A stretch of 64,000 nt of DNA from NCBI GenBank assembly GCA_029001845.1, contig JAREWP010000063.1, positions 1-64,000 of the forward strand, read 5' to 3'. Shown piece by piece: positions 2,917-50,084 of the stretch (position 1 is the stretch's first letter; each line of letters begins with the position of its first letter). Below the pieces are notes generated by a model, which saw only the letters and a program-made list of their open reading frames with translations, was not told the DNA's origin and did no database searches. The stretch comes from Candidatus Magnetocorallium paracelense. GTDB lineage: Bacteria > Nitrospirota > Thermodesulfovibrionia > Thermodesulfovibrionales > Magnetobacteriaceae. Both the position numbers and the translations under genes were made by a program.

Positions 2917-3777
2917 ATGGGATTCGTAATTAATACAAACGTTATGTCTTTAAACTCGCAAAGGAATTTAAGAAGAACGCAGGCGCCATTGGAAACGGCA
3001 ATGCAGAGGTTGTCATCGGGACTAAGGATCAACTCGGCAAAGGACGATGCAGCAGGGTTGGCAATCGCAACAAGAATGACATCGCAGATCAGGGGACTGC
3101 ACGTAGCTGTAAGAAATGCAAATGACGGCCTCTCTATCGTACAAACCGCAGAAGGCGCCATGGACGAAATAATAAATAATATTCAAAGAATAAGAGAGCT
3201 TGCCATACAGGCGAAAAGCGGTCAATACTCCGCATCGGACATCGGGTTTATGCAGGCCGAGGTAAACGCATTGGTATTGGAAAACAGCAGAATAGCCAAC
3301 CAGACAAAATTTAACGACAGAGACATTCTGAATGTAACCGGAGGTTATTCCCAGACAATTCACATCAGCTATAAAGCCAGTGATACAGGGATTAACATCA
3401 GCGTTGCAAATATAGATACAGACAGCATTGGAAACGGAACGAATACTTTGAACCAACTGGAAACAGGTCAGGCATATGCACTATCCACAGTAGCAAGTAC
3501 AATGCAGATAACAGTGAATATACTCGATGGCTCTCTAAATACATTGCTCACGGAAAAAGCGAGCCTGGGAGCATCGGCAAACAGATTCCTGGCTTCCATA
3601 AGGAACCTCGATAACATTATAGAAACGACAGAGGCGGCAAGGTCGAGAATACTCGATGCAGACCTGGCCATAGAAACGGCGAATCTCACAAAACAGTTGA
3701 TACTGCAGCAGGCAGGCGTGTCCGTACTGGCTCAGGCCAATACCTTACCTCAAAATGTTTTGTCACTACTTCAGTAA
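2917..3777 (+). CDS. fliC: flagellin B
   Basis: Flagellin of 286 residues, a short type consisting of the D0/D1 helical core with almost no exposed D2/D3 part. Start ATG follows GGAGG by 6 nt. The N-terminus [18 protein letters not shown] and C-terminus ending [10 protein letters not shown] are the coiled-coil halves of the filament core; the middle (about residues 125-185, GGYSQTIHISYKAS) is the only variable part. It groups with flagellin A (GLHVA, ELAIQ, DIGFMQ). Unique features are NSQRNLRRTQ at the start and LVLENSRIANQ in the hinge before the variable part. It would be exported by the flagellar type III apparatus, none of whose genes are in the window. It has the longest and most structured leader of the array. 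Confidence 0.98.
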   Translation: MGFVINTNVMSLNSQRNLRRTQAPLETAMQRLSSGLRINSAKDDAAGLAIATRMTSQIRGLHVAVRNANDGLSIVQTAEGAMDEIINNIQRIRELAIQAKSGQYSASDIGFMQAEVNALVLENSRIANQTKFNDRDILNVTGGYSQTIHISYKASDTGINISVANIDTDSIGNGTNTLNQLETGQAYALSTVASTMQITVNILDGSLNTLLTEKASLGASANRFLASIRNLDNIIETTEAARSRILDADLAIETANLTKQLILQQAGVSVLAQANTLPQNVLSLLQ

Positions 3778-3789
3778 ACAGATGATTTT

Positions 3790-3837
3790 GGATTGAGGGA
3801 TTGAGGGATTGAGGAATTGAGGAATTGAGGAATTGAG
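3790..3837 (+). repeat. 8-bp tandem repeat (GGATTGAG/GAATTGAG, six copies)
   Basis: Three copies of GGATTGAG followed directly by three of GAATTGAG, starting 13 bp after the flagellin B stop codon. Copy number of such short repeats can change by slippage; here it would alter only the 3' flank, not a reading frame. Confidence 0.95.
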
Positions 3838-3850
3838 TTTTACAAATTCT

Positions 3851-4122
3851 GCTGTTTAAGCAGCGACATTTCTCTTACTCCCTCTCCCCCTTCGAAGGGG
3901 GAGAGGGTTGGGGTGAGGGGGGTGCGGTATGGCACCTGATAAGGAATCGCATCTTTGCCCTTACCCAACCATCACTTTTCTCTCCTTATGGAGAGAAGAG
4001 TAAGAGAGAAAAAGACGGAGGAGTATCGACATTACGCTGACTGTACACTTTTGTACATCACGGTAACGATCTCTCTTTTAGAGAGACAGGGACAGTAAAG
4101 ACAATAACGCTGCCTGAGCAGC
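3851..4122 (+). repeat. flagellin spacer unit, copy 1
   Basis: Block bounded by GCTG..CAGC palindromes. It contains a CTCCCCC/GGGGGAG hairpin, a TCTCTC...GAGAGA hairpin with the following GACAG..CAGTAA, and a terminal GCTGCCTGAGCAGC. A clearly related block lies after flagellin C (5243-5502) and a shorter one after D (about 7090-7251), so the spacer seems to have been duplicated together with the genes. Confidence 0.6.
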
Positions 4123-4280
4123 TATAAGTAAATACAGGGCAGATGCAAAAGACGGTTTTTTAAAACACCCTCTGTTCCCCTTTTTTAAGGGAGAAGACAT
4201 TAAGGAGCATTCTTTATAAACATGCATTTATCGAATCAGAATCTGTAACGATTAAGAAAAGATATTTTATCTTTTATAAA

Positions 4281-4323
4281 AGACAGCGGGATGTTGTCTG
4301 TAAAATTTAAACTGCCATGGAGG
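4281..4323 (+). promoter_or_regulatory. flagellin C leader: GGA-loop hairpin and ribosome binding site
   Basis: AGACAGC/GTTGTCT (4281-4299) forms a 7-bp stem with one G-U pair and loop GGGAT. Read through, GGGATGT matches the 3' part of the CsrA SELEX consensus (RGGAUGU), with an ACA just upstream. GGAGG lies at 4319-4323. Immediately upstream is an 8-bp perfect inverted repeat AAAAGATA/TATCTTTT. Confidence 0.65.
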
Positions 4324-4329
4324 TAAGTT

Positions 4330-5190
4330 ATGGGATTTGTAATTAACACAAATGTAATGTCAATCAATGCTCAGAGGAACCTGCGTAAAACACAGGCCCC
4401 TCTGGAAACTGCGATGCAGAGACTCTCTTCAGGTCTCAGAATAAATTCGGCAAAAGACGATGCCGCAGGACTGGCCATCTCCACAAGAATGACCTCGCAG
4501 ATCAGGGGTCTCAATGTGGCTGTCAGAAACGCAAACGATGGTCTCTCTATCGTGCAGACCGCTGAAGGAGCTATGGACGAGATCATCAACAACATACAGA
4601 GAGTGAGGGAGCTGGCCGTGCAGGCAAAGAGCGGTCAGTACTCCGCATCGGACATCAGCTTCATGCAGACCGAGGTGAACGCCCTGGTTACGGAAATCAG
4701 CAGAATTTCCAATCAGACAAGATTTAACAATGTAGCTCTTCTGGACGCTTCAGGCGGTTACTCAGAGACGATCCATGTCAGTTATAAGGCCAGTGACAGC
4801 GGTATCACCATAAACATGGCCAACATGGACATCGATCAGTTGGGCAGCGGCACAACCTATCTCAACACTTTGCAGACAGGCCAGGCCTACGCCCTGTCGA
4901 CAATAGCCGCAAATATGCAGATAACCATGAATGTGCTCGACGATTCGCTAAATACACTGCTTACGGAAAAGGCTAATCTCGGTGCTCTGGCCAACAGATT
5001 TCAGGCTGCCATCAGAAATCTCGACAATATCGTGGAAACCACCGAAGCGGCAAGATCGAGAATCAAAGATGCAGACTTCGCTGTGGAAACAGCGAATCTC
5101 ACCAAGCAGTTGATACTACAACAGGCAGGCGTGTCTGTACTCGCTCAGGCCAATACATTGCCTCAAAATGTATTGTCACTGCTTCAGTAG
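4330..5190 (+). CDS. fliC: flagellin C
   Basis: Flagellin of 286 residues with the same D0/D1-only design as its neighbours. ATG follows GGAGGTAAGTT. It belongs to the C-F subgroup ([45 protein letters not shown]). It is nearly identical to flagellin D; the differences I see are mostly conservative and in the middle (for example TINMANMD against AINIANTD), which points to recent duplication or gene conversion. The leader and roughly 75 bp upstream of the start are also shared with D, so both are probably expressed under the same control. No poly-T terminator was recognised directly after the stop. Confidence 0.98.
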
Positions 5191-5242
5191 TGGGGAAGGC
5201 ATAAGGCTTTAGGATTAAAACATAAACCATTTTTCAGGTTAA

Positions 5243-5502
5243 GCTGCAAAAGCAGCGATCTATCTCTTACTCCCTCTCCCCCTTTGAAGGGGGAGAGGGT
5301 TGGGGTGAGGGAGTGCGGTATGGTACTCGATAAGGTAACGCATCACCGCCTTCACCCCTCACCTCTCCTTTTGAGGGGAGAGGTGAGGAGTGAAGACGGA
5401 GAAGCATTCACGTTTCAATAATTGTCATGTTCTACTGGGAACGGCAATCGTCTCTCATTTTGAGAGACAGAGGCAGTAAAAAAGCAATGCTGCTTAAGCA
5501 GC
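5243..5502 (+). repeat. flagellin spacer unit, copy 2
   Basis: Bounded by GCTGCAAAAGCAGC and GCTGCTTAAGCAGC. It shares the CTCCCCC..GGGGGAG hairpin and a GTCTCTCATTTTGAGAGACA hairpin with copy 1, in the same order. Confidence 0.65.
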
Positions 5503-5610
5503 TTAACTTAAAGATACAGGAGGTAAATTCTTAACAAATTGAGGTAAAAAATCGCGAACATCCGGTATAAAGCAGAAATAAGGAGTATGAATCTAAAAAA
5601 AAAGCGCATC

Positions 5611-5710
5611 GTCATTCCGGCGGAAGCCGGAATCCAGGCGTGTTTTAAACAACAAAACAAAAACCGACCCCTTATTTCAGACCCTGGATTTCGGTTTTCA
5701 CCGGAATGAC
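5611..5710. repeat. 100-bp inverted repeat with GTCATTCCGG ends
   Basis: Begins GTCATTCCGG and ends CCGGAATGAC, with inner arms GGAATCCAG and CTGGATTTC. This is a widely distributed bacterial palindromic repeat type. Only this copy is in the window. Confidence 0.8.
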
Positions 5711-5799
5711 AGTATCCTTTGGTTTTATTTTTAAAAGAAGGGGTGTCAAATTTATGCTACGCCGGGATAAGGATTTCTGAAGTGATTGTAATTAAAGCT

Positions 5800-5962
5800 A
5801 AAAAACAGCAGTCAGCTACCGGTGGTCAGCCTTCAGGCCGTGAAAGTATTGATGTTATGCAGATAATAAGCTTCACTTTATGGGTACATGTGTTCTGAAC
5901 CGTAAAGCGTTGCAATTTAAAAGCAGATTGCTGATGGCTGACAGCTAAATGCTCTTTTTTTA
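5800..5962. repeat. R1 palindromic repeat, copy 1
   Basis: Starts AAAAAACAGCAGTCAGCT and ends with GGCTGACAGCTAAATGC followed by a T-run. The core GATGTTATGC..AATAAGCTTCAC is shared with the other R1 copies. The arms pair over 25-35 nt when transcribed and are flanked by A and T runs, so the element could terminate transcription in both directions. Confidence 0.8.
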
Positions 5963-6088
5963 GGCTTTTTTTATCAACAGACACTGATCATAACAAATAT
6001 TTTTAATAAATCCGAGTTTATTCGGAATAAATGACAGCTAAAATCGGCATCTATTAACAGAATGAAAAGATATTTTATCTTTTATAAA

Positions 6089-6131
6089 AGACAGCGGGAT
6101 GTTGTCTATAAATTTACAGCCGCCAAGGAGG
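6089..6131 (+). promoter_or_regulatory. flagellin D leader: GGA-loop hairpin and ribosome binding site
   Basis: Same hairpin as flagellin C: AGACAGC/GTTGTCT (6089-6107) with loop GGGAT, then GGAGG at 6127-6131. Confidence 0.65.
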
Positions 6132-6137
6132 TAAGTC

Positions 6138-6998
6138 ATGGGATTTGTAATTAACACAAATGTTATGTCAATCAATGCTCAGAGAAACCTGCGTAAAACA
6201 CAGGCGCCATTGGAAACCGCCATGCAGAGACTCTCTTCAGGTCTCAGAATAAATTCGGCAAAAGACGATGCTGCGGGACTGGCCATTTCCACAAGAATGA
6301 CCTCTCAGATCAGAGGTTTGAATGTAGCGGTCAGAAACGCAAACGATGGTCTCTCTATCGTGCAAACCGCAGAAGGCGCCATGGACGAGGTTATCAACAA
6401 TATCCAGAGAATAAGAGAGCTCGCCGTTCAGGCAAAGAGCGGTCAATACTCCGCATCGGACATCAGCTTCATGCAGACCGAGGTAAACGCCCTGGTTACG
6501 GAAATCAGCAGAATTTCCAATCAGACAAGATTTAACAATGTAGCTCTTCTGGATGCTTCAGGCGGTTACTCCGAGACGATCCATGTCAGCTTTAAGGCCA
6601 GTGACACCGGTATCGCCATCAACATAGCGAATACCGACATCGATCAGCTTGGCAGCGGTACAACCTATCTCAACACGCTTCAAACCGGGCAGGCTTACGC
6701 CCTGTCGACAATAGCCGCCAATATGCAGATCACCATGAATGTACTCGACGATTCGCTCAATACGCTGCTTACCGAGAAAGCCAATCTCGGTGCTCTGGCT
6801 AACAGATTTCAGGCTGCCATCAGAAATCTCGACAATATTGTAGAGACAACGGAAGCGGCAAGATCGAGAATCAAAGACGCAGATTTTGCTATAGAAACAG
6901 CGAATCTCACAAAGCAGTTGATACTGCAACAGGCAGGCGTGTCCGTACTGGCCCAGGCCAATACGTTGCCTCAAAATGTTTTGTCACTGCTTCAGTAG
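6138..6998 (+). CDS. fliC: flagellin D
   Basis: Flagellin of 286 residues, D0/D1 core type, start ATG after AAGGAGGTAAGTC. Differences from flagellin C that I can see include VINNIQRIREL instead of [18 protein letters not shown] instead of HVSYKAS, and AINIANTD in the short central part. From residue 190 onward the proteins are almost the same. Its variable middle is closest to flagellin E ([15 protein letters not shown] in both), so it looks intermediate between C and E, as expected if unequal crossing-over has shuffled this array. Confidence 0.98.
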   Translation: MGFVINTNVMSINAQRNLRKTQAPLETAMQRLSSGLRINSAKDDAAGLAISTRMTSQIRGLNVAVRNANDGLSIVQTAEGAMDEVINNIQRIRELAVQAKSGQYSASDISFMQTEVNALVTEISRISNQTRFNNVALLDASGGYSETIHVSFKASDTGIAINIANTDIDQLGSGTTYLNTLQTGQAYALSTIAANMQITMNVLDDSLNTLLTEKANLGALANRFQAAIRNLDNIVETTEAARSRIKDADFAIETANLTKQLILQQAGVSVLAQANTLPQNVLSLLQ

Positions 6999-7089
6999 AG
7001 GGGAAAGGCATGAGGCATAAAGATTAGAGCGTAATCGATTTACACTTTTATGTTCAATCGAATTTGACATACAGGAATTTCCGGGAAAT

Positions 7090-7251
7090 TCTCCTTACAT
7101 ATCCTCTTCCCTTGGGGGGAGAGGAGTAAGGAGAGGGGTGAAGGCAGGAAGCACTAACGTTCCGGTAACTATAACGCCTTTACCACTTGCTGCAATCATT
7201 TCTCATTTTGAGAAACAGAGGGCAGTAGGAAAACAACGCTGCTTAAGCAGC
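7090..7251 (+). repeat. flagellin spacer unit, copy 3 (partial)
   Basis: Shares TCTCATTTTGAGAAACAGAG, then GGCAGTA, and ends in the same GCTGCTTAAGCAGC as copy 2. The left palindrome is missing. Confidence 0.5.
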
Positions 7252-7264
7252 GACTTTTTCTTAC

Positions 7265-7320
7265 TCCCTCTCCCCTCAAGGGGAGAGGAGACTTAAAAGG
7301 AATTTTTTTGAAATTCCTAT
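7265..7320. repeat. R3 repeat, short copy
   Basis: CTCTCCCCTCAAGGGGAGAG hairpin followed by GAGACTTAAAAGGAATT and a GGAATT..AATTCC palindrome. The same pair of hairpins recurs at 51449-51500, 57162-57245 and 58207-58330. Confidence 0.7.
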
Positions 7321-7321
7321 A

Positions 7322-7791
7322 AATATATTATATCGATTATACAATCGAATTACATATAACAAATATTTAGATATTTAGAATGCAAAGGAGGTCTATACCC
7401 TATGTAATGACATGATGTTAAATCACGCATCGACATCTTAGTTGTCAGGTACGCACTCATTAAAGTCCTTATTATAGAGAAAAAGTGTAAGTTCTCGATA
7501 AGTCGAGACTTTCTAAAGGTCACATCCTGTAACTGAGTACTTACAATTGTAAACAACACTATTTCCCCCTTTTTTTAAGAGGGAGTACAGTAAGGAGCTT
7601 TGATTTTATAGAGAAACAGATCACAACAGAATTCTTTATTATTACTGTTTATCCACATAAATCTACAACTAAAATCGGTATTCATTAAAGGAGGTAATTT
7701 TTGAACCTTATATATAGCTTATACAAAATAAAACGGAAGGAGGTCTTTATTCACATATATGAACGATAAGGACATTTTGTTTAACCAAAAA
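7322..7791. other. spacer before flagellin E with strong but empty ribosome binding sites
   Basis: No ordinary gene. AAAGGAGGT at 7384-7392 is followed at good spacing by ATG TAA (7402-7407), a start codon next to a stop. AAAGGAGGT at 7687-7695 and AAGGAGGT at 7737-7744 lead to the two tiny frames listed separately. Confidence 0.5.
7701..7769 (+). CDS. possible 22-residue leader peptide upstream of flagellin E
   Basis: TTG start 5 nt after a perfect AAAGGAGGT (7687-7695); the product begins LNLIYSLYKIK (Met at position 1 if used). Its stop (7767-7769) overlaps the start of the next tiny frame at 7759, the geometry of translational coupling. Nothing but position and ribosome site supports it. 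Confidence 0.25.
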   Translation: MNLIYSLYKIKRKEVFIHIYER

Positions 7792-7854
7792 GATAGCAAG
7801 ATGTTATCAAAAAACAGTGTTACCCTACATGGAGGTAAGTCATGGGATTTGTAA
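7759..7854 (+). CDS. possible 31-residue leader peptide overlapping the flagellin E start
   Basis: ATG preceded by AAGGAGGT (7737-7744, spacing a little long at 14 nt). The frame begins MNDKDILFNQK and runs through the leader hairpin and the flagellin ribosome site, stopping 13 nt inside flagellin E in another frame. Its first residues resemble those of the frame at 8927 (MNRRDILIYLK). The nucleotide sequence is itself shared between leaders, so the peptide may not be the selected feature. Confidence 0.3.
   Translation: MNDKDILFNQKDSKMLSKNSVTLHGGKSWDL
7792..7835 (+). promoter_or_regulatory. flagellin E leader: hairpin without GGA loop
   Basis: GATAGC/GTTATC (7792-7808) with loop AAGAT, then GGAGG at 7831-7835. 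Position and stem correspond to the hairpins of B-D, but the loop has lost the GGA. Confidence 0.55.
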
Positions 7855-8702
7855 TCAATACAAATGTAATGTCCATCAACGCTCAGAGGAACCTGCGTAA
7901 AACACAGGCTCCCCTGGAAACAGCTATGCAGAGGCTCTCTTCAGGTCTGAGAATAAACTCCGCCAAAGACGACGCCGCAGGGCTGGCCATTTCCACAAGA
8001 ATGACATCTCAGATCAGAGGTCTGAATGTGGCGGTTCGAAACGCAAACGACGGTCTCTCTATCGTGCAGACCGCAGAGGGCGCTATGGATGAGGTTATCA
8101 ACAACATCCAGAGAATAAGAGAGCTCGCCGTTCAGGCAAAGAGCGGTCAATACTCCGCCTCGGACATTAGCTTCATGCAGACTGAAGTAAACGCCCTGGT
8201 TACGGAAATCAGCAGAATTTCCAATCAGACAAGATTTAATAACATAGCCATTTTGGACGCAACAGGCGGTTACTCCGAGACAGTCCATATCAGTTATAAG
8301 GCCAGCGACACCGGCATCGCCATCAATATAGCGAATACCGACATCGATCAGCTTGGCAGCGGCACAACCTATCTCAACACTCTTCAGACCGGGCAGACCT
8401 ACGCCCTGTCTACGGTAGCCGCAAATATGCAGGTAACCATGAATGTACTCGACGACTCGCTTAATACGTTGCTCAACGAAAAAGCGAACCTCGGTGCTCT
8501 GGCCAACAGATTTCAGGCTGCCATCAGAAATCTCGACAATATTGTGGAAACAACCGAATCGGCCAGGTCCAGAATCAAAGACGCAGACTTTGCAGTGGAA
8601 ACGGCGAATCTCACGAAACAGTTGATACTGCAGCAGGCAGGTGTGTCAGTACTGGCCCAGGCCAATACGCTGCCTCAGAACGTTTTGGCTTTATTGCAGT
8701 AA
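7842..8702 (+). CDS. fliC: flagellin E
   Basis: Flagellin of 286 residues, same D0/D1 design, ATG after GGAGGTAAGTC. It differs from D mainly in the hinge (NNIAILDATGG against [11 protein letters not shown]), VHISYKAS, and LLNEKANL for LLTEKANL. It has a unique ETTESARSR where the others have ETTEAARSR, and ends LPQNVLALLQ, shared only with F. Its leader hairpin keeps the stem but not the GGA loop, so it may escape the control inferred for B-D. Confidence 0.98.
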   Translation: MGFVINTNVMSINAQRNLRKTQAPLETAMQRLSSGLRINSAKDDAAGLAISTRMTSQIRGLNVAVRNANDGLSIVQTAEGAMDEVINNIQRIRELAVQAKSGQYSASDISFMQTEVNALVTEISRISNQTRFNNIAILDATGGYSETVHISYKASDTGIAINIANTDIDQLGSGTTYLNTLQTGQTYALSTVAANMQVTMNVLDDSLNTLLNEKANLGALANRFQAAIRNLDNIVETTESARSRIKDADFAVETANLTKQLILQQAGVSVLAQANTLPQNVLALLQ

Positions 8703-8716
8703 TAGGAAATTTATAT

Positions 8717-8746
8717 GGAACGGGCAAAGAACGCTTTACCCGTTCC
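8717..8746 (+). terminator. hairpin after flagellin E
   Basis: GGAACGGG/CCCGTTCC with an inner AAAG/CTTT extension, 14 bp after the stop codon. No T-run follows, so it may protect the 3' end or be a factor-dependent terminator. Confidence 0.55.
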
Positions 8747-8926
8747 GCCACTGCACTATGTTTCATTACAACCGTTCGCGATTTATGGTTTGCGGTTGAT
8801 GAATATGGGCAGGAAGGAGGAAGGCTATAAATTACATCAGTCAACCATTAACCGGAGATCGTGCAAGTTTGAAAAGAATTTACAGAGTTTATCTAAAAAA
8901 TATATTAAAGGAGGTCTTTTAAAACT

Positions 8927-8983
8927 ATGAACAGGAGGGATATTTTAATCTACTTAAAAAGAATGGCTAAAAGCTATCTTTAA
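8927..8983 (+). CDS. possible 18-residue leader peptide upstream of flagellin F
   Basis: ATG 11 nt after a perfect AAAGGAGGT (8907-8915). The product starts MNRRDILIYLKRMAK and ends just before the flagellin F ribosome site, overlapping the leader hairpin. Ribosomes translating it would unfold that hairpin, which could give translational control. Speculative. Confidence 0.35.
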   Translation: MNRRDILIYLKRMAKSYL

Positions 8984-9002
8984 AAACCATTACACAAGGA
9001 GG
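8963..9002 (+). promoter_or_regulatory. flagellin F leader: degenerate hairpin and ribosome binding site
   Basis: ATGGC/GCTAT (8963-8977, one G-U pair) with loop TAAAA, then AAGGAGG ending at 9002. Spacing to the start codon is the same as in the other leaders, but the stem is shorter and the GGA is absent. Confidence 0.45.
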
Positions 9003-9008
9003 TAAGTC

Positions 9009-9869
9009 ATGGGATTTGTAATCAATACGAACGTCATGTCTATTAACGCACAGAGGAATCTGCGTAAAACACAGGCGCCTCTTGAGTCGGCAATGCAAAG
9101 ATTGTCCTCCGGTTTGAGAATCAATTCGGCCAAGGACGATGCGGCGGGTCTTGCAATCGCCACAAGGATGACCTCTCAGATCAGAGGTCTGAACGTAGCG
9201 GTTCGAAACGCCAATGACGGTTTGTCCGTTGTACAGACCGCCGAAGGCGCAATGGATGAAATCATAAACAACATCCAGAGAGTCAGAGAACTTGCAGTAC
9301 AGGCCAGAAGCGGTCAGTACTCAGCATCGGACATCAGCTTCATGCAGGCCGAAGTAAACGCTCTTGTAACCGAGATAAGCAGAATATCGACGCAGACGAG
9401 ATTTAACGACATTTCCATTCTCGATGCAACAGGCGGTTATAACCAGACAATACACATCAGTTATAAGGCCAGTGACACGGGAATAAGCGTTAATATCTCC
9501 AATATGGACATCGATCAGTTGGGCAGTGGCAGTAACTATCTCAATACACTTCAGACAGGGCAGACCTATGCATTGTCAACAGTAGCTGCCACAATGCAGA
9601 CGACGATGAACATACTGGACGGAGCGTTGAATACTCTGCTTAACGAAAAGGCCAATCTCGGCGCCCTGGCCAACAGATTTCAGGCTGCTATCAGAAATCT
9701 GGACAACATTGTGGAAACAACCGAAGCCGCAAGATCCAGAATCAGCGATGCCGACTTTGCAGTGGAAACTGCAAATCTCACAAAGCAACTGATACTACAG
9801 CAGGCAGGTGTGTCCGTATTGGCCCAGGCCAATACATTGCCTCAAAACGTTTTAGCACTGTTACAATAA
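9009..9869 (+). CDS. fliC: flagellin F
   Basis: Flagellin of 286 residues and the last of the array. ATG follows AAGGAGGTAAGTC. It is the most diverged of the C-F subgroup: LESAMQRLSS, AIATRM (as in A and B, where C-E have AISTRM), QARSGQYS, and a central GGYNQTIHISYKAS with ISVNISNMD. The end LPQNVLALLQ matches E. Its mixed similarity to both subgroups suggests recombination within the array. A strong stem-loop closes the transcription unit. Confidence 0.98.
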   Translation: MGFVINTNVMSINAQRNLRKTQAPLESAMQRLSSGLRINSAKDDAAGLAIATRMTSQIRGLNVAVRNANDGLSVVQTAEGAMDEIINNIQRVRELAVQARSGQYSASDISFMQAEVNALVTEISRISTQTRFNDISILDATGGYNQTIHISYKASDTGISVNISNMDIDQLGSGSNYLNTLQTGQTYALSTVAATMQTTMNILDGALNTLLNEKANLGALANRFQAAIRNLDNIVETTEAARSRISDADFAVETANLTKQLILQQAGVSVLAQANTLPQNVLALLQ

Positions 9870-45695: not shown

Positions 45696-48600
45696 ATGGA
45701 ACGTTTTATACTGTTTAATTTGTTGTTTTTATTTTTAATACAGCCTATTACAACAAAAGCCTGGACACTGCCAGATACGGGGCAAACTCAATCTTTTACC
45801 GATACCTTTGGGGAAGATTCTGATTACACTATAAATCCTCCATCATATACTGACAATGGAGATGGAACTACTACGGATAATGTGACCGAATTGATGTGGC
45901 AACAGGAGTTTGACGATTACTATAACTGGTATGAAGCTTCAGGTACGTATGATGATGAGTTTAATCCTGACACAACAGATGTATGTGGAAACCTTTCTCT
46001 TGGCGGCTATACTGACTGGCGTCTGCCGTCAAAGAAGGAGCTTGTCACGATTGTGGATTATGAAGTGAATAGTCCCATGATAGATGAGAGTTATTTTCAA
46101 CTTGTTAATGGAGGACTTTATGACTATTGGACGTCCACTGCCAGCGCGATCAACAACTCTGAAGCGTGGAAACTGAACTTCTACGATTCCGATGGTAGAC
46201 TCTCCGACTACCCTAAGTCATTCAATGGGGCTACGCGGTGCGTGCGAGGCGGACAGTCTTGGTCATTTGATAATTTGGTAATTTCCGGTGCGGGAATAGT
46301 GACAGATAACAATTCCGGCTTAATGTGGCAGCAGGAGGACGACGGGACTGAGAAGGAATGGGAAGAGGCTATAGAGTATTGCGAGGGATTGAGTCTTGCA
46401 GGGTACAGTGACTGGCGGCTGCCTAATATCAAGGAGCTGGAATCTATAACAAATGATGAAGAGTATAATCCATCGATAAATGAGAGTTATTTTCCCAATA
46501 CGCAATCTGACTACTATTGGTCGTCCACTTCCTTTACCGACCTCTTCTACACCTTTCACGCGTGGGGAGTGGACTTCTACGATGGCCACGTCGGCATCTC
46601 CTATAAGTCGAACAGCAACTACGCCCGGTGCGTGCGAGGCGGACTGTCTTGGTTACTTGATATTACGCCGTCCTCATACGACTTTGGCAGTATTGATGCA
46701 GGCAGCAGCTCTAATACGCAAAGTTTTACTATCTCAAACTCCGGCAATGTTAATTTGGCTATAGGTACAATAGAGACAACCGGTACAAATGCCACTGAGT
46801 TTACAAAACAAAATGACAACTGCTCAAATACAACTGTATCAACATCATCAACTTGTACTGTCGATGTAGTGTTTTCACCAACATCTGCCGGGTCAAAAAG
46901 TGCATCACTTGATATCCCCTCAAATGCTCCGGACACCTCAACATTAAACGTAGCATTAACAGGTACCGGTACCACAGCTCAATACACTTTAACAGTATTA
47001 AAATCCGGTGCAGGATCAGGTACCGTAACAAGCTCACCCTCCGGTATAAACTGTGGTGCGGATTGCTCCGAGAGCTATAGCTCCGGGACATCGGTAACTC
47101 TTACAGCTTCACCGGATTCAGGTTCAGCCTTTGACAGTTGGTCAGGAGGCGGATGCAGTGGTACCGGAGATTGCTCGATATCAATCGGATCAAATACAAC
47201 TGTAACGGCAACATTTACCTCATGCTCATACAACCTCTCATCAACAGCGCAATCATTTACATCGTCAGGAGGAGAGGGATCGGTCAATGTAAGTGCAAAC
47301 AGTGGCTGCAGCTGGAGCGCCTCAAGCAATGACAGTTGGATAAGTATTACATCAGGTAGTAGTGGTACAGGGAGCTCAACGGTAAGTTACACAGCCTCTG
47401 AGAATACGAGCACAAGCTCTCGAACAGGTACAATGACAATCGCCGGGCATACATTTACCGTAACACAGGACGGTACGGCCTGTACATATTCAATATCTCC
47501 GACAAGCCGGAGTTTTGATACATCAGGAGGCAAAGGAAGCGTAACGGTGTCTGCATCGAACAGTACCTGCACCTGGGCAGCCTCTACAAACGAGTCCTGG
47601 ATAATCATAACATCGGGCAGCAGCTTGACGGGAAGCGGTGAAGTGAAATATTTCGTAGCGGAAAATACGGATATAAAAATCAGAACAGGGGCAATGGTAA
47701 TAGCTGACAAGACATTTATCGTAACTCAAAACGGTAACTCAGAAGCTTTTGCGCTGAGAGGCTACTGGGACTTTAACGAAGGCGCAGGAACAACTGCCGG
47801 TGACAGTTCGGGAAATGCATACAACGGCACAATCAACGGAGCTGAATGGATGGACAACGGAGCATGCGGATACGGGCTGAAATTTAAGGGAAGCGAGGAT
47901 TCAGTGGAGTTGCCCTACGGTGTGCTGAACGGATTAACGGATACGACATTCAGTGCCTGGGTAAAGACAACCGATAATGTGGGGGCAATCATTTCAGGAG
48001 CAAACAACGATGATTCCAATGAATTTCTGCTTTTTTATGAGACCGATTTTCTGATACCCATTATACAGGGGAATAAATTTTTCAGCACCAGAGGGATCAG
48101 CGACGGCCAGTGGCACTATGTGACCATGATAAAGGACAGTGCATTAAGCACAGTGCACATATATATAGACGGAGTACTGGATAATGCGGAGATTATCAGT
48201 ACGGGAACTCTGGAAATAGAACCCGGCGGGCTCTGGCTCGGAAGGGAGCAGGATTGTGTGGGGGGCTGCTTTGAAACAGACCAGGATTATAAAGGCAGTA
48301 TGGATGAAGTACGCGTATTTAACTACGTATTGAGTGAAGCAGAGATCCTGGCATACATGTCCGAATGTGAACCAACGGGTCATGGCGGAATATACTCACT
48401 TACAGTCGCCAAATCGGGAACAGGAAGCGGAATCATAGAGAGTACGCCTTCAGGGATACATTGCGGAGATGACTGTAAAGAGGGATACGATGAAGGCACG
48501 GAAGTCACATTAACGGCAACAGCCGATTCAGGCTCACTTTTTAGCGGCTGGTCCGGAGGAGAGTGCATCGGAACAACAGGCTGTACCGTAACAATGGACA

Positions 48601-50084
48601 GTGATAAAGAGGTAACCGCGGTATTTGTCGAGGGATCGACAACGGAAACAGTACCTGACAAGGCAATCATAGTGGCGGGTACCTATTCGACGACCGACAG
48701 TCTGTGGGAGTCCACTCAGAAGAATGCGGATAAGGCGTACAAGGCTCTGATATCCCAGGGATATGCAAAGGAAAAGATCACATACCTGACAGCAGGAGAA
48801 ACGGGGATCGATGTAGATAAAAACGGAGTATTTGACGACATCGACGGAAGCGCCACAAAGGAATCCATTAGAGAAGCACTCTTTCAATCCTCATTTGAAG
48901 AGGGCAATATTTTAATTTATTTTGTAGACCACGGAAATGACGGTACCTTTTGGGTAAACGAGAGAGAGGTGCTGTATGCGGCGGAACTGGATACATGGCT
49001 TGATATAATCGAAAAAAGACTGGCCGGAGAGATCATAGTGGTGTATGACGCCTGTATGTCCGGGAGTTTTGTAAATTTCCTTTTACCCATACAGGGAAAG
49101 AGAAGAATCGTAATAACCAGTACTGCCTCTGACGAGTATGCCAATTTTGTAAGTCAGGGAATCGTCTCTTTTTCCTATTACTTCTGGACAGAGATCCAAC
49201 ACAGCGGAGATTTATATGACTCCTTTGTATCAGCCGAAGGTGCTGTGGAGTTTAGTTTCAGTGAACAGCATCCTGAAATCGATGCCAACGGAAACGGAGT
49301 ATCAAACGAAAAGGAAGATATTATAATTGCTGGCGAGTATACAATCGGAATCGGCACGATCCACGGCATAGACGTACCTACAATAGAGAGCATATCGGAT
49401 CCGCAGACATTGTCAGGGGGAATGACCAATGCGACAATCACGGTGGAAGGAGTCAACTCCGCAGGAACCATAGCAGAGGTATGGGCGGTAATCGATCCGC
49501 CGAACTATGAGCCCCCGTCTCCGAGCGAGCCGGTAACCAATCTTCCCACTGTGAGTCTCACAAACAGAGGAGGCGGAACCTACTCATTTACCTACAGCGG
49601 ATATACTGTAACAGGGGATTATGAGATATCCGTATACGCCAAAGACACGGATGAAAACATATCGGAGCCAAAAACAACAACAATAACCCAAACCAGGGGG
49701 AACGAACTCCCGCCGGCCCCGGACATCAATGCTAACGGTTCCGACACTTCCATAACCATGGCTTCGGCAGACACACTCACACTTTCAGCGGCCCTTGATG
49801 CAGGAAGTTACAAAGGACAACAGGCAGAGCACTGGATATACATAGTGAGCCAGAGCGGATCATACTATTATTATTATGACATCTTAACAAGGGCAGGAAG
49901 ATGGTTGCCGGGGACAGAAGTGAGTTACAGCGGTAATTTAACCGGCTTTCCGTCAATGGATATATTAAATATATCAGGGTTGTCTCCCGGTCTGTATCTT
50001 GTTTATTTCAAGGTGGATTTTAATTTGAACGGATACCTTGACGACACATTATATTATGACAGCATAACGATAACAGTGGAATGA
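45696..50084 (+). CDS. giant secreted mosaic protein: DUF1566 x2, ASH, BACON x2, LamG-like, caspase-like domain
   Basis: 1462 residues; signal peptide FILFNLLFLFLIQPITTKA (2-22); AAGGAGAG before ATG. Modules in order: two DUF1566/Lcl domains (about 50-190 and 195-315, each with LMWQQE, a DWRLPS/N-K-EL motif and a final RCVRGG), an ASH domain (about 321-428), an InlB-type repeat (429-508, GSGTVTSSPSGINCG), two BACON domains (509-595, 600-685), a LamG/concanavalin-like domain (687-895, GYWDFNEGAGT), a second InlB-type repeat (899-980), a caspase-like domain (988-1215) with catalytic His in FVDHGNDG (about 1077) and Cys in YDACMSG (about 1116), an Ig-like domain, and a C-terminal beta domain. 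The caspase domain looks active. The DUF1566 ends carry DGR-type variable regions. Likely a surface or secreted protein combining recognition and proteolysis. Confidence 0.9.
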   Translation: MERFILFNLLFLFLIQPITTKAWTLPDTGQTQSFTDTFGEDSDYTINPPSYTDNGDGTTTDNVTELMWQQEFDDYYNWYEASGTYDDEFNPDTTDVCGNLSLGGYTDWRLPSKKELVTIVDYEVNSPMIDESYFQLVNGGLYDYWTSTASAINNSEAWKLNFYDSDGRLSDYPKSFNGATRCVRGGQSWSFDNLVISGAGIVTDNNSGLMWQQEDDGTEKEWEEAIEYCEGLSLAGYSDWRLPNIKELESITNDEEYNPSINESYFPNTQSDYYWSSTSFTDLFYTFHAWGVDFYDGHVGISYKSNSNYARCVRGGLSWLLDITPSSYDFGSIDAGSSSNTQSFTISNSGNVNLAIGTIETTGTNATEFTKQNDNCSNTTVSTSSTCTVDVVFSPTSAGSKSASLDIPSNAPDTSTLNVALTGTGTTAQYTLTVLKSGAGSGTVTSSPSGINCGADCSESYSSGTSVTLTASPDSGSAFDSWSGGGCSGTGDCSISIGSNTTVTATFTSCSYNLSSTAQSFTSSGGEGSVNVSANSGCSWSASSNDSWISITSGSSGTGSSTVSYTASENTSTSSRTGTMTIAGHTFTVTQDGTACTYSISPTSRSFDTSGGKGSVTVSASNSTCTWAASTNESWIIITSGSSLTGSGEVKYFVAENTDIKIRTGAMVIADKTFIVTQNGNSEAFALRGYWDFNEGAGTTAGDSSGNAYNGTINGAEWMDNGACGYGLKFKGSEDSVELPYGVLNGLTDTTFSAWVKTTDNVGAIISGANNDDSNEFLLFYETDFLIPIIQGNKFFSTRGISDGQWHYVTMIKDSALSTVHIYIDGVLDNAEIISTGTLEIEPGGLWLGREQDCVGGCFETDQDYKGSMDEVRVFNYVLSEAEILAYMSECEPTGHGGIYSLTVAKSGTGSGIIESTPSGIHCGDDCKEGYDEGTEVTLTATADSGSLFSGWSGGECIGTTGCTVTMDSDKEVTAVFVEGSTTETVPDKAIIVAGTYSTTDSLWESTQKNADKAYKALISQGYAKEKITYLTAGETGIDVDKNGVFDDIDGSATKESIREALFQSSFEEGNILIYFVDHGNDGTFWVNEREVLYAAELDTWLDIIEKRLAGEIIVVYDACMSGSFVNFLLPIQGKRRIVITSTASDEYANFVSQGIVSFSYYFWTEIQHSGDLYDSFVSAEGAVEFSFSEQHPEIDANGNGVSNEKEDIIIAGEYTIGIGTIHGIDVPTIESISDPQTLSGGMTNATITVEGVNSAGTIAEVWAVIDPPNYEPPSPSEPVTNLPTVSLTNRGGGTYSFTYSGYTVTGDYEISVYAKDTDENISEPKTTTITQTRGNELPPAPDINANGSDTSITMASADTLTLSAALDAGSYKGQQAEHWIYIVSQSGSYYYYYDILTRAGRWLPGTEVSYSGNLTGFPSMDILNISGLSPGLYLVYFKVDFNLNGYLDDTLYYDSITITVE
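46140..46261 (+). other. putative DGR-type variable region 1
   Basis: End of the first DUF1566 domain. A stretch of highly variable codons (46140-46235) lies on a constant frame of YW.ST, AW..NFYD and RCVRGG. It is followed by CGGTGCGTGCGAGGCGGAC, which recurs exactly at the second domain; the identity continues through GTCTTGG with one mismatch. DUF1566/Lcl C-type-lectin-like domains are known diversity-generating retroelement targets. Confidence 0.45.
46530..46651 (+). other. putative DGR-type variable region 2
   Basis: End of the second DUF1566 domain. In 46530-46625, 22 of 32 codons end in C, in a gene otherwise rich in A/T third positions. Codons such as ACC GAC CTC TTC TAC are what adenine-directed mutagenesis of AAC codons in a template would leave. 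The conserved GC-rich block CGGTGCGTGCGAGGCGGAC follows, a candidate initiation-of-mutagenic-homing site. Confidence 0.55.

Follow-up and report, generated by a model that had tools for sequence, protein, structure and literature searches.

Among the closest known counterparts of the gene analysed here are the remote targets of diversity-generating retroelements (DGRs). In Treponema denticola, the targets of the TvpA family are C-type-lectin-like, remote and written by one template, and isolates without the core reverse transcriptase (RT) and template repeat (TR) keep recognisable variable regions (VRs), which were interpreted as remnants (PMC4891356). Each isolate carries two to seven targets and the TvpA VR is C-terminal (PMC4891356), whereas the VRs of the present gene are internal, paired in one open reading frame (ORF), located in DUF1566 domains and found in a different lineage. 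In cyanobacteria, remote variable proteins form a dispersed set of numerous CLec paralogues whose VR/TR homology varies, but their VRs lie almost exclusively near the 3' termini and their domain partners are different (PMC7517822). DGR 4/5 of Thiohalocapsa PB-PSB1 likewise has several VR-bearing lectin domains in tandem within one gene and lacks the RT at the locus; its targets hold three CLec domains in a row, which are diversified in trans, and the VR matches a template elsewhere (PMC10907252). There, a vWA domain precedes the CLec domains, the setting is that of a conflict system and the genome has a usable template (PMC10907252), while the tails of the present 1462-aa modular protein lie towards its N-terminus and no template was found. 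Homing in Bordetella phage BPP-1 depends on an element immediately 3' of the VR (PMC3240598), and VRs at large have been described as near-universally C-terminal, a placement attributed to a requirement for non-coding cis signals 3' of the VR (PMC8144416). Remote targets, tandem VR-bearing lectin domains, action in trans and core-less strains with targets are already published (PMC4891356; PMC7517822; PMC10907252). As far as the literature searched shows, the novelty is that VRs in this lineage are regularly internal and paired, a placement that conflicts with the rule that VRs lie at gene 3' ends.

The window, a stretch of 64,000 nucleotides from Candidatus Magnetocorallium paracelense, contains on its + strand a target-type gene of 1462 aa (45696–50084), delineated from the ORF listing and Pfam. 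Its N-terminus is hydrophobic and, by eye, signal-peptide-like. Pfam assigns to the protein two Lcl_C/DUF1566 domains, Ig-like HYDIN/ASH, two Flg_new_2 (InlB B-repeat) domains, BACON, Laminin_G_3 and a Peptidase_C13-like, caspase-fold domain (48888–49139, + strand, E = 5.6e-10). The C-type-lectin-like Lcl_C domains lie on the + strand at 45864–46247 (PF07603, E = 7.6e-26) and 46293–46637 (PF07603, E = 1.2e-36). The AlphaFold model of the second (pLDDT 79) was matched by Foldseek to the C-terminal domain of Legionella Lcl (PDB 8q4e, E = 1.8e-4), which ranked best in the structure search of the PDB, with C-type lectins next. The two PF07603 domains and these matches place both VRs in the C-type-lectin-type fold of DGR variable proteins, while the Legionella pneumophila domain has the same fold and family, and family membership alone is no evidence of DGR diversification.

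Both domains close in a variable tail of 37 codons, namely VR1 (YWTSTASAINNSEAWKLNFYDSDGRLSDYPKSFNGAT, 46125–46235, + strand), delimited by tail comparison and codon-position tests, and VR2 (YWSSTSFTDLFYTFHAWGVDFYDGHVGISYKSNSNYA, 46515–46625, + strand), identified from codon statistics. Each is followed by the same 19-nt block, CGGTGCGTGCGAGGCGGAC, whose first copy (46236–46254, + strand) codes for RCVRGG and forms the IMH-like constant 3' end of VR1, the second (46626–46644, + strand) being an exact match, as the preliminary description had reported. Chance expectation of the block in the window is 0, no third exact copy was found by a genome-wide search of the 6.0-Mb assembly, and at 3 mismatches the sole genome matches are two other DUF1566 genes. 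A homologous block, with 1 mismatch, closes the VRs adjoining a DGR RT in another genome of the same order (G101), and a constant GC-rich, IMH-like block is found at the 3' end of both window VRs. With 1275 aa following VR1 and 1145 aa following VR2, the tails are internal, again as first described, and the usual, although not strictly defining, position at the gene 3' end is not seen.

The count of 22 C-ending codons among 32, noted at the outset, was reproduced exactly for 46530–46625. Over the whole of VR2, C occupies 62% of third positions (C3 = 0.62) against 24% in the remainder of the gene, a level unmatched in 14,618 spans of 37 codons across the ORFs of the 64 kb; VR1 is weaker, its 41% being reached by 3.4% of spans. 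The same genome carries on contig C93 a 499-aa gene (L011:1496-2995) with two VR-like DUF1566 tails, whose codon-position signature is stronger than that of the window pair. High C3 alone was dropped as proof of a DGR VR, since VR1 and the C93 tails are only moderately high. At the columns where templates have Asn, NNC or NNT codons make up 91–100% in true VRs, 87–94% in VR2 and the C93 tails (VR2 0.89), and mostly 59–79% in the unrelated DUF1566 tails of this genome; VR1 taken singly is not distinguishable (NNY 0.70, C3 0.41).

Two VRs written from one AAC/AAT-rich template should differ at the first two codon bases but share base 3, and the pair can therefore be examined without the template. 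Base-3 identity between the VR1 and VR2 tails is 0.69 versus 0.56 at bases 1–2, whereas the part of the same two domains before the tails gives 0.41 versus 0.63; the tail pattern runs opposite to normal evolution. In the 22 codons that encode different residues, base 3 is shared in 64% versus 35% on permutation (p = 0.0007), a test that rests on few codons and, with about seven tandem pairs examined, has a corrected p near 0.005 for the window. An ungapped alignment gives the same direction. For the C93 pair the base-3 identity is 0.83, and different-residue codons share base 3 in 86% versus 45% permuted (p < 5e-5); no significant signal was obtained with this different-residue test for the tandem pairs C90, C97 and C48 of this genome, or for G150 and L111. 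True DGR pairs reach base-3 identities of 1.00 (G101), 1.00 (G078) and 0.94 (G074b of G074), with 0.73–0.76 at bases 1–2, and the window values fall within the range of the relatives' internal pairs, for example those of G072. VR1 and VR2 are separated by indels as well as substitutions. Such a reversed codon-position signature offers a way to spot orphan VRs that lack a template.

The window genome was assembled into 6.0 Mb on 103 contigs, with an estimated completeness of 99.6%. An RVT_1 search recovered seven RTs, several at contig ends and all on contigs other than that of the window, in agreement with the initial observation that the window holds neither RT nor template. All seven were excluded as DGR RTs, none having the [IVL]GxxxSQ motif; motif and family models assign them to group II intron RTs (some broken), a group II-like RT with a TPR-like C-terminus, an RT-Cas1 fusion (contig C33, L003) and a retron-type RT (contig C76, L004). 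The DGR RT of G101, used as query against this genome, gave weak matches alone, to two of these seven RTs (at C44 and C33). Avd had no match in the window genome, and the same search found it in G074, G077, G078, G101 and G126. No template repeat was found there with the block at up to 3 mismatches, with blastn or with a profile built from template and VR DNA (R1), DUF1566 genes alone being matched; the twelve places hit by R1, which picks up ordinary DUF1566 domains too, are all DUF1566 genes. The search in IMG/VR returned 0 exact matches to CGGTGCGTGCGAGGCGGAC and no relative of the window Lcl_C domain. The G101 RT has three viral relatives there, at least one of which lies beside a DUF1566 gene and a template-like stretch rich in Asn, and none of the three carries the block. 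A match to the block in G021 was discarded as a chance match in an unrelated gene.

Absence of RT and template from the genome had been listed in the preliminary description among the findings that would refute the DGR reading. Neither was found, yet this is not taken as a refutation, because in the same bacterial family the machinery and its template write remote, internal and paired DUF1566 VRs. Searching with the block at up to 2 mismatches led to G101, in which a DGR RT with the motif GLPIGNLTSQ lies between two DUF1566 VRs. DGR RTs of this kind occur in the same-family genomes G074, G075 and G078, and DGR cores with DUF1566 targets in G074 and G078 of the same family and in G101 and G126 of the same order; G074 and G078 hold template/VR pairs of DUF1566 type, and relatives from the protein search include Thermodesulfovibrionia (Nitrospirota) MAGs. 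G077 has kept a template and Avd, with no RT found. One of its loci (L176:2344-7382, contig C29) carries a VR gene, Avd, the template and a 1183-aa gene with an internal VR; the local VRs look fresh, and no RT was found at its usual place or in the rest of that genome.

VRs were detected by a motif pattern, which overlooks some tails. Six same-family genomes each gave at least 10 VR-like tails in an order-wide profile search, and G074, G072 and G077 each gave at least 19. In G074, 17 VRs spread over 10 contigs match one template; many of these VRs are internal and paired in one ORF, and the tails range from fresh to decayed, with 24–63% of template adenines and 2–19% of other bases changed. 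When the better-preserved VRs of G074, G075, G077 and G078 were pooled, 42% of template adenines and 5.7% of other bases were changed, the G075 tails being scored against G074 templates. Some of the freshest VRs are internal, for example one in G077 (19/38 A changed versus 1/88 other bases; 997 aa follow) and one in G074 (17/38 versus 3/88; 1889 aa follow). More than 100 aa follow 40 of the 66 VR-type tails in five same-family genomes (G074, G075, G077, G078 and G072). Two VR-type tails occur together in sixteen ORFs of family f1, where they are mostly internal and mostly show base-3 identities of 0.6–1.0. The target-type genes of G072 (L185, L189) combine two Lcl_C domains with Peptidase_C13, as the window gene does. 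The family thus carries VRs inside long genes, often two per ORF, over many contigs, and contig-based searches miss such remote targets.

As in BPP-1, where a GC-rich IMH-like block closes the VR and an element lies immediately downstream (PMC3240598), a putative element, ATTTGATAATTTGGTAATTT, follows VR1 (46265–46284, + strand), recognised by motif pattern and lying in frame in the coding sequence. Its degenerate counterpart after VR2, TCTTGGTTACTTGATATTACG (46647–46667, + strand), identified by motif comparison, fails the pattern. The ATTTG-repeat motif is present after window VR1 and after C93a, with a shuffled expectation of 0–1.5%, and it follows 36 of 69 VR-type tails of family f1 (17/25 terminal and 19/44 internal), 0 of 5 templates and 0 of 11 low-C3 DUF1566 tails of the window genome. 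It is non-coding after terminal VRs and translated after internal ones, so the downstream element occurs also as coding sequence. We infer that the motif acts in targeting, but terminal-VR genes may also have derived from internal-VR genes through a stop codon. In G078, a VR 36 nt longer than its template has an in-frame TGA directly 3' (L087:10436-10600, contig C72), and an open frame with typical target domains continues beyond that TGA. BPP-1 needs a hairpin after its VR (PMC3240598), whereas the element seen here consists of AT-rich ATTTG repeats, in frame when the VR is internal. No hairpin of at least 7 bp follows the window VRs (best stems 4 and 3 bp), and in family f1 such hairpins follow 8/25 terminal versus 2/44 internal tails; most of the relatives' fresh internal VRs are likewise without one. 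When the 57-nt stretch ending 45 nt past the VRs was tested by generic folding, z was not significant.

Taken with the anatomy of the gene, the core absent from the assembly, the codon-position signature and the same-family DGRs with the same target architecture, the gene at 45696–50084 is probably an orphan remote DGR target, whose core was lost or left unassembled and whose VRs have begun to drift. The DGR origin of the tails proposed in the preliminary description is well supported by the comparative evidence, but its suggestion of a current remote target finds no support at a base-3 agreement of 0.69. Since this identity is well below 1.0 and indels are present, writing has probably stopped. 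In an ancestor, an AAC/AAT-rich template would have been reverse-transcribed by an error-prone DGR RT together with Avd, its adenines being randomised, and the mutated cDNA would have replaced the tails of both lectin-like domains. Targeting would have relied on the GC-rich block at the 3' end of the tail and probably also on the AT-rich element after it. The outcome would be a secreted modular protein, presumably surface-located and ligand-binding, in which two binding surfaces vary independently of each other and precede the adhesin-like and C13-peptidase-like domains. Later in the lineage, RT, Avd and template would have ceased to be detectable, and the tails would have drifted by ordinary mutation; the core appears to have been lost rather than missed by the assembly.

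That the gene is a currently active target, its core present in the species but unassembled or unbinned because template/VR repeats break assemblies, is unlikely, although it is the likeliest of the alternatives. It fits the 103 contigs with several RT genes at contig ends, the cassette of G077, where template and Avd were found but an RT was not, and VR2, which alone looks fresh; yet RT, Avd and template left no trace in an assembly estimated to be 99.6% complete, and co-written VRs would be expected to agree at nearly all third bases, as they do in G101, G078 and G074b. Horizontal import of a tandem domain already diversified in a DGR-bearing bacterium, and never written in this lineage, is less probable still. 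VR2 and the VRs of G101, which belongs to another family, agree at 69–74% of third bases, against 33–48% in the upstream parts, and the blocks are one base apart; comparable cross-family agreement is, however, common among the DGR VRs compared, the same architecture recurs in same-family genomes, and VR-like tails at two more loci of the window genome (C93 and, less clearly, C73) indicate that diversification was not confined to one import. The mean difference between base 3 and bases 1–2 against foreign DGR VRs was dropped as a classifier, some tails of uncertain status scoring alike. Ordinary positive selection on lectin-loop residues with gene conversion of the tail ends between tandem domains, without any retroelement, is already disfavoured and very improbable: DUF1566 tails vary in every member and DNA exchange would account for the shared block, but selection would not spare base 3 while altering the other two in 22 codons, conversion would homogenise the variable codons too, the same-genome controls lack the signature and the pattern equals that of same-family DGR pairs.

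With the orphan target as the preferred reading, the window genome gives a view of such a set of VRs after the retroelement has gone. More tentatively, one template of the family DGR might serve a genome-wide set of lectin domains, many paired and internal in large secreted proteins, because coding sequence can accommodate, in frame, the target signal that lies 3' of the VR; the window gene would then be an orphan of such a set, with one or more sites that still look intact, and renewed diversification would be possible if such a DGR re-entered the genome. The window also contains, at 2917–9869 on the + strand, a run of five 286-aa ORFs that are 83–97% identical and by sequence resemble flagellins. 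Elsewhere in the order, the ORF of the G101 DGR RT (L051:5878-7263) continues beyond the RT into a region that, by eye, resembles a MutS N-terminal domain, and other DGRs (L091–L097; G032, G031, G028, G113, G155 and G124) have non-DUF1566 templates and VRs, FGE/CLec-like by eye.
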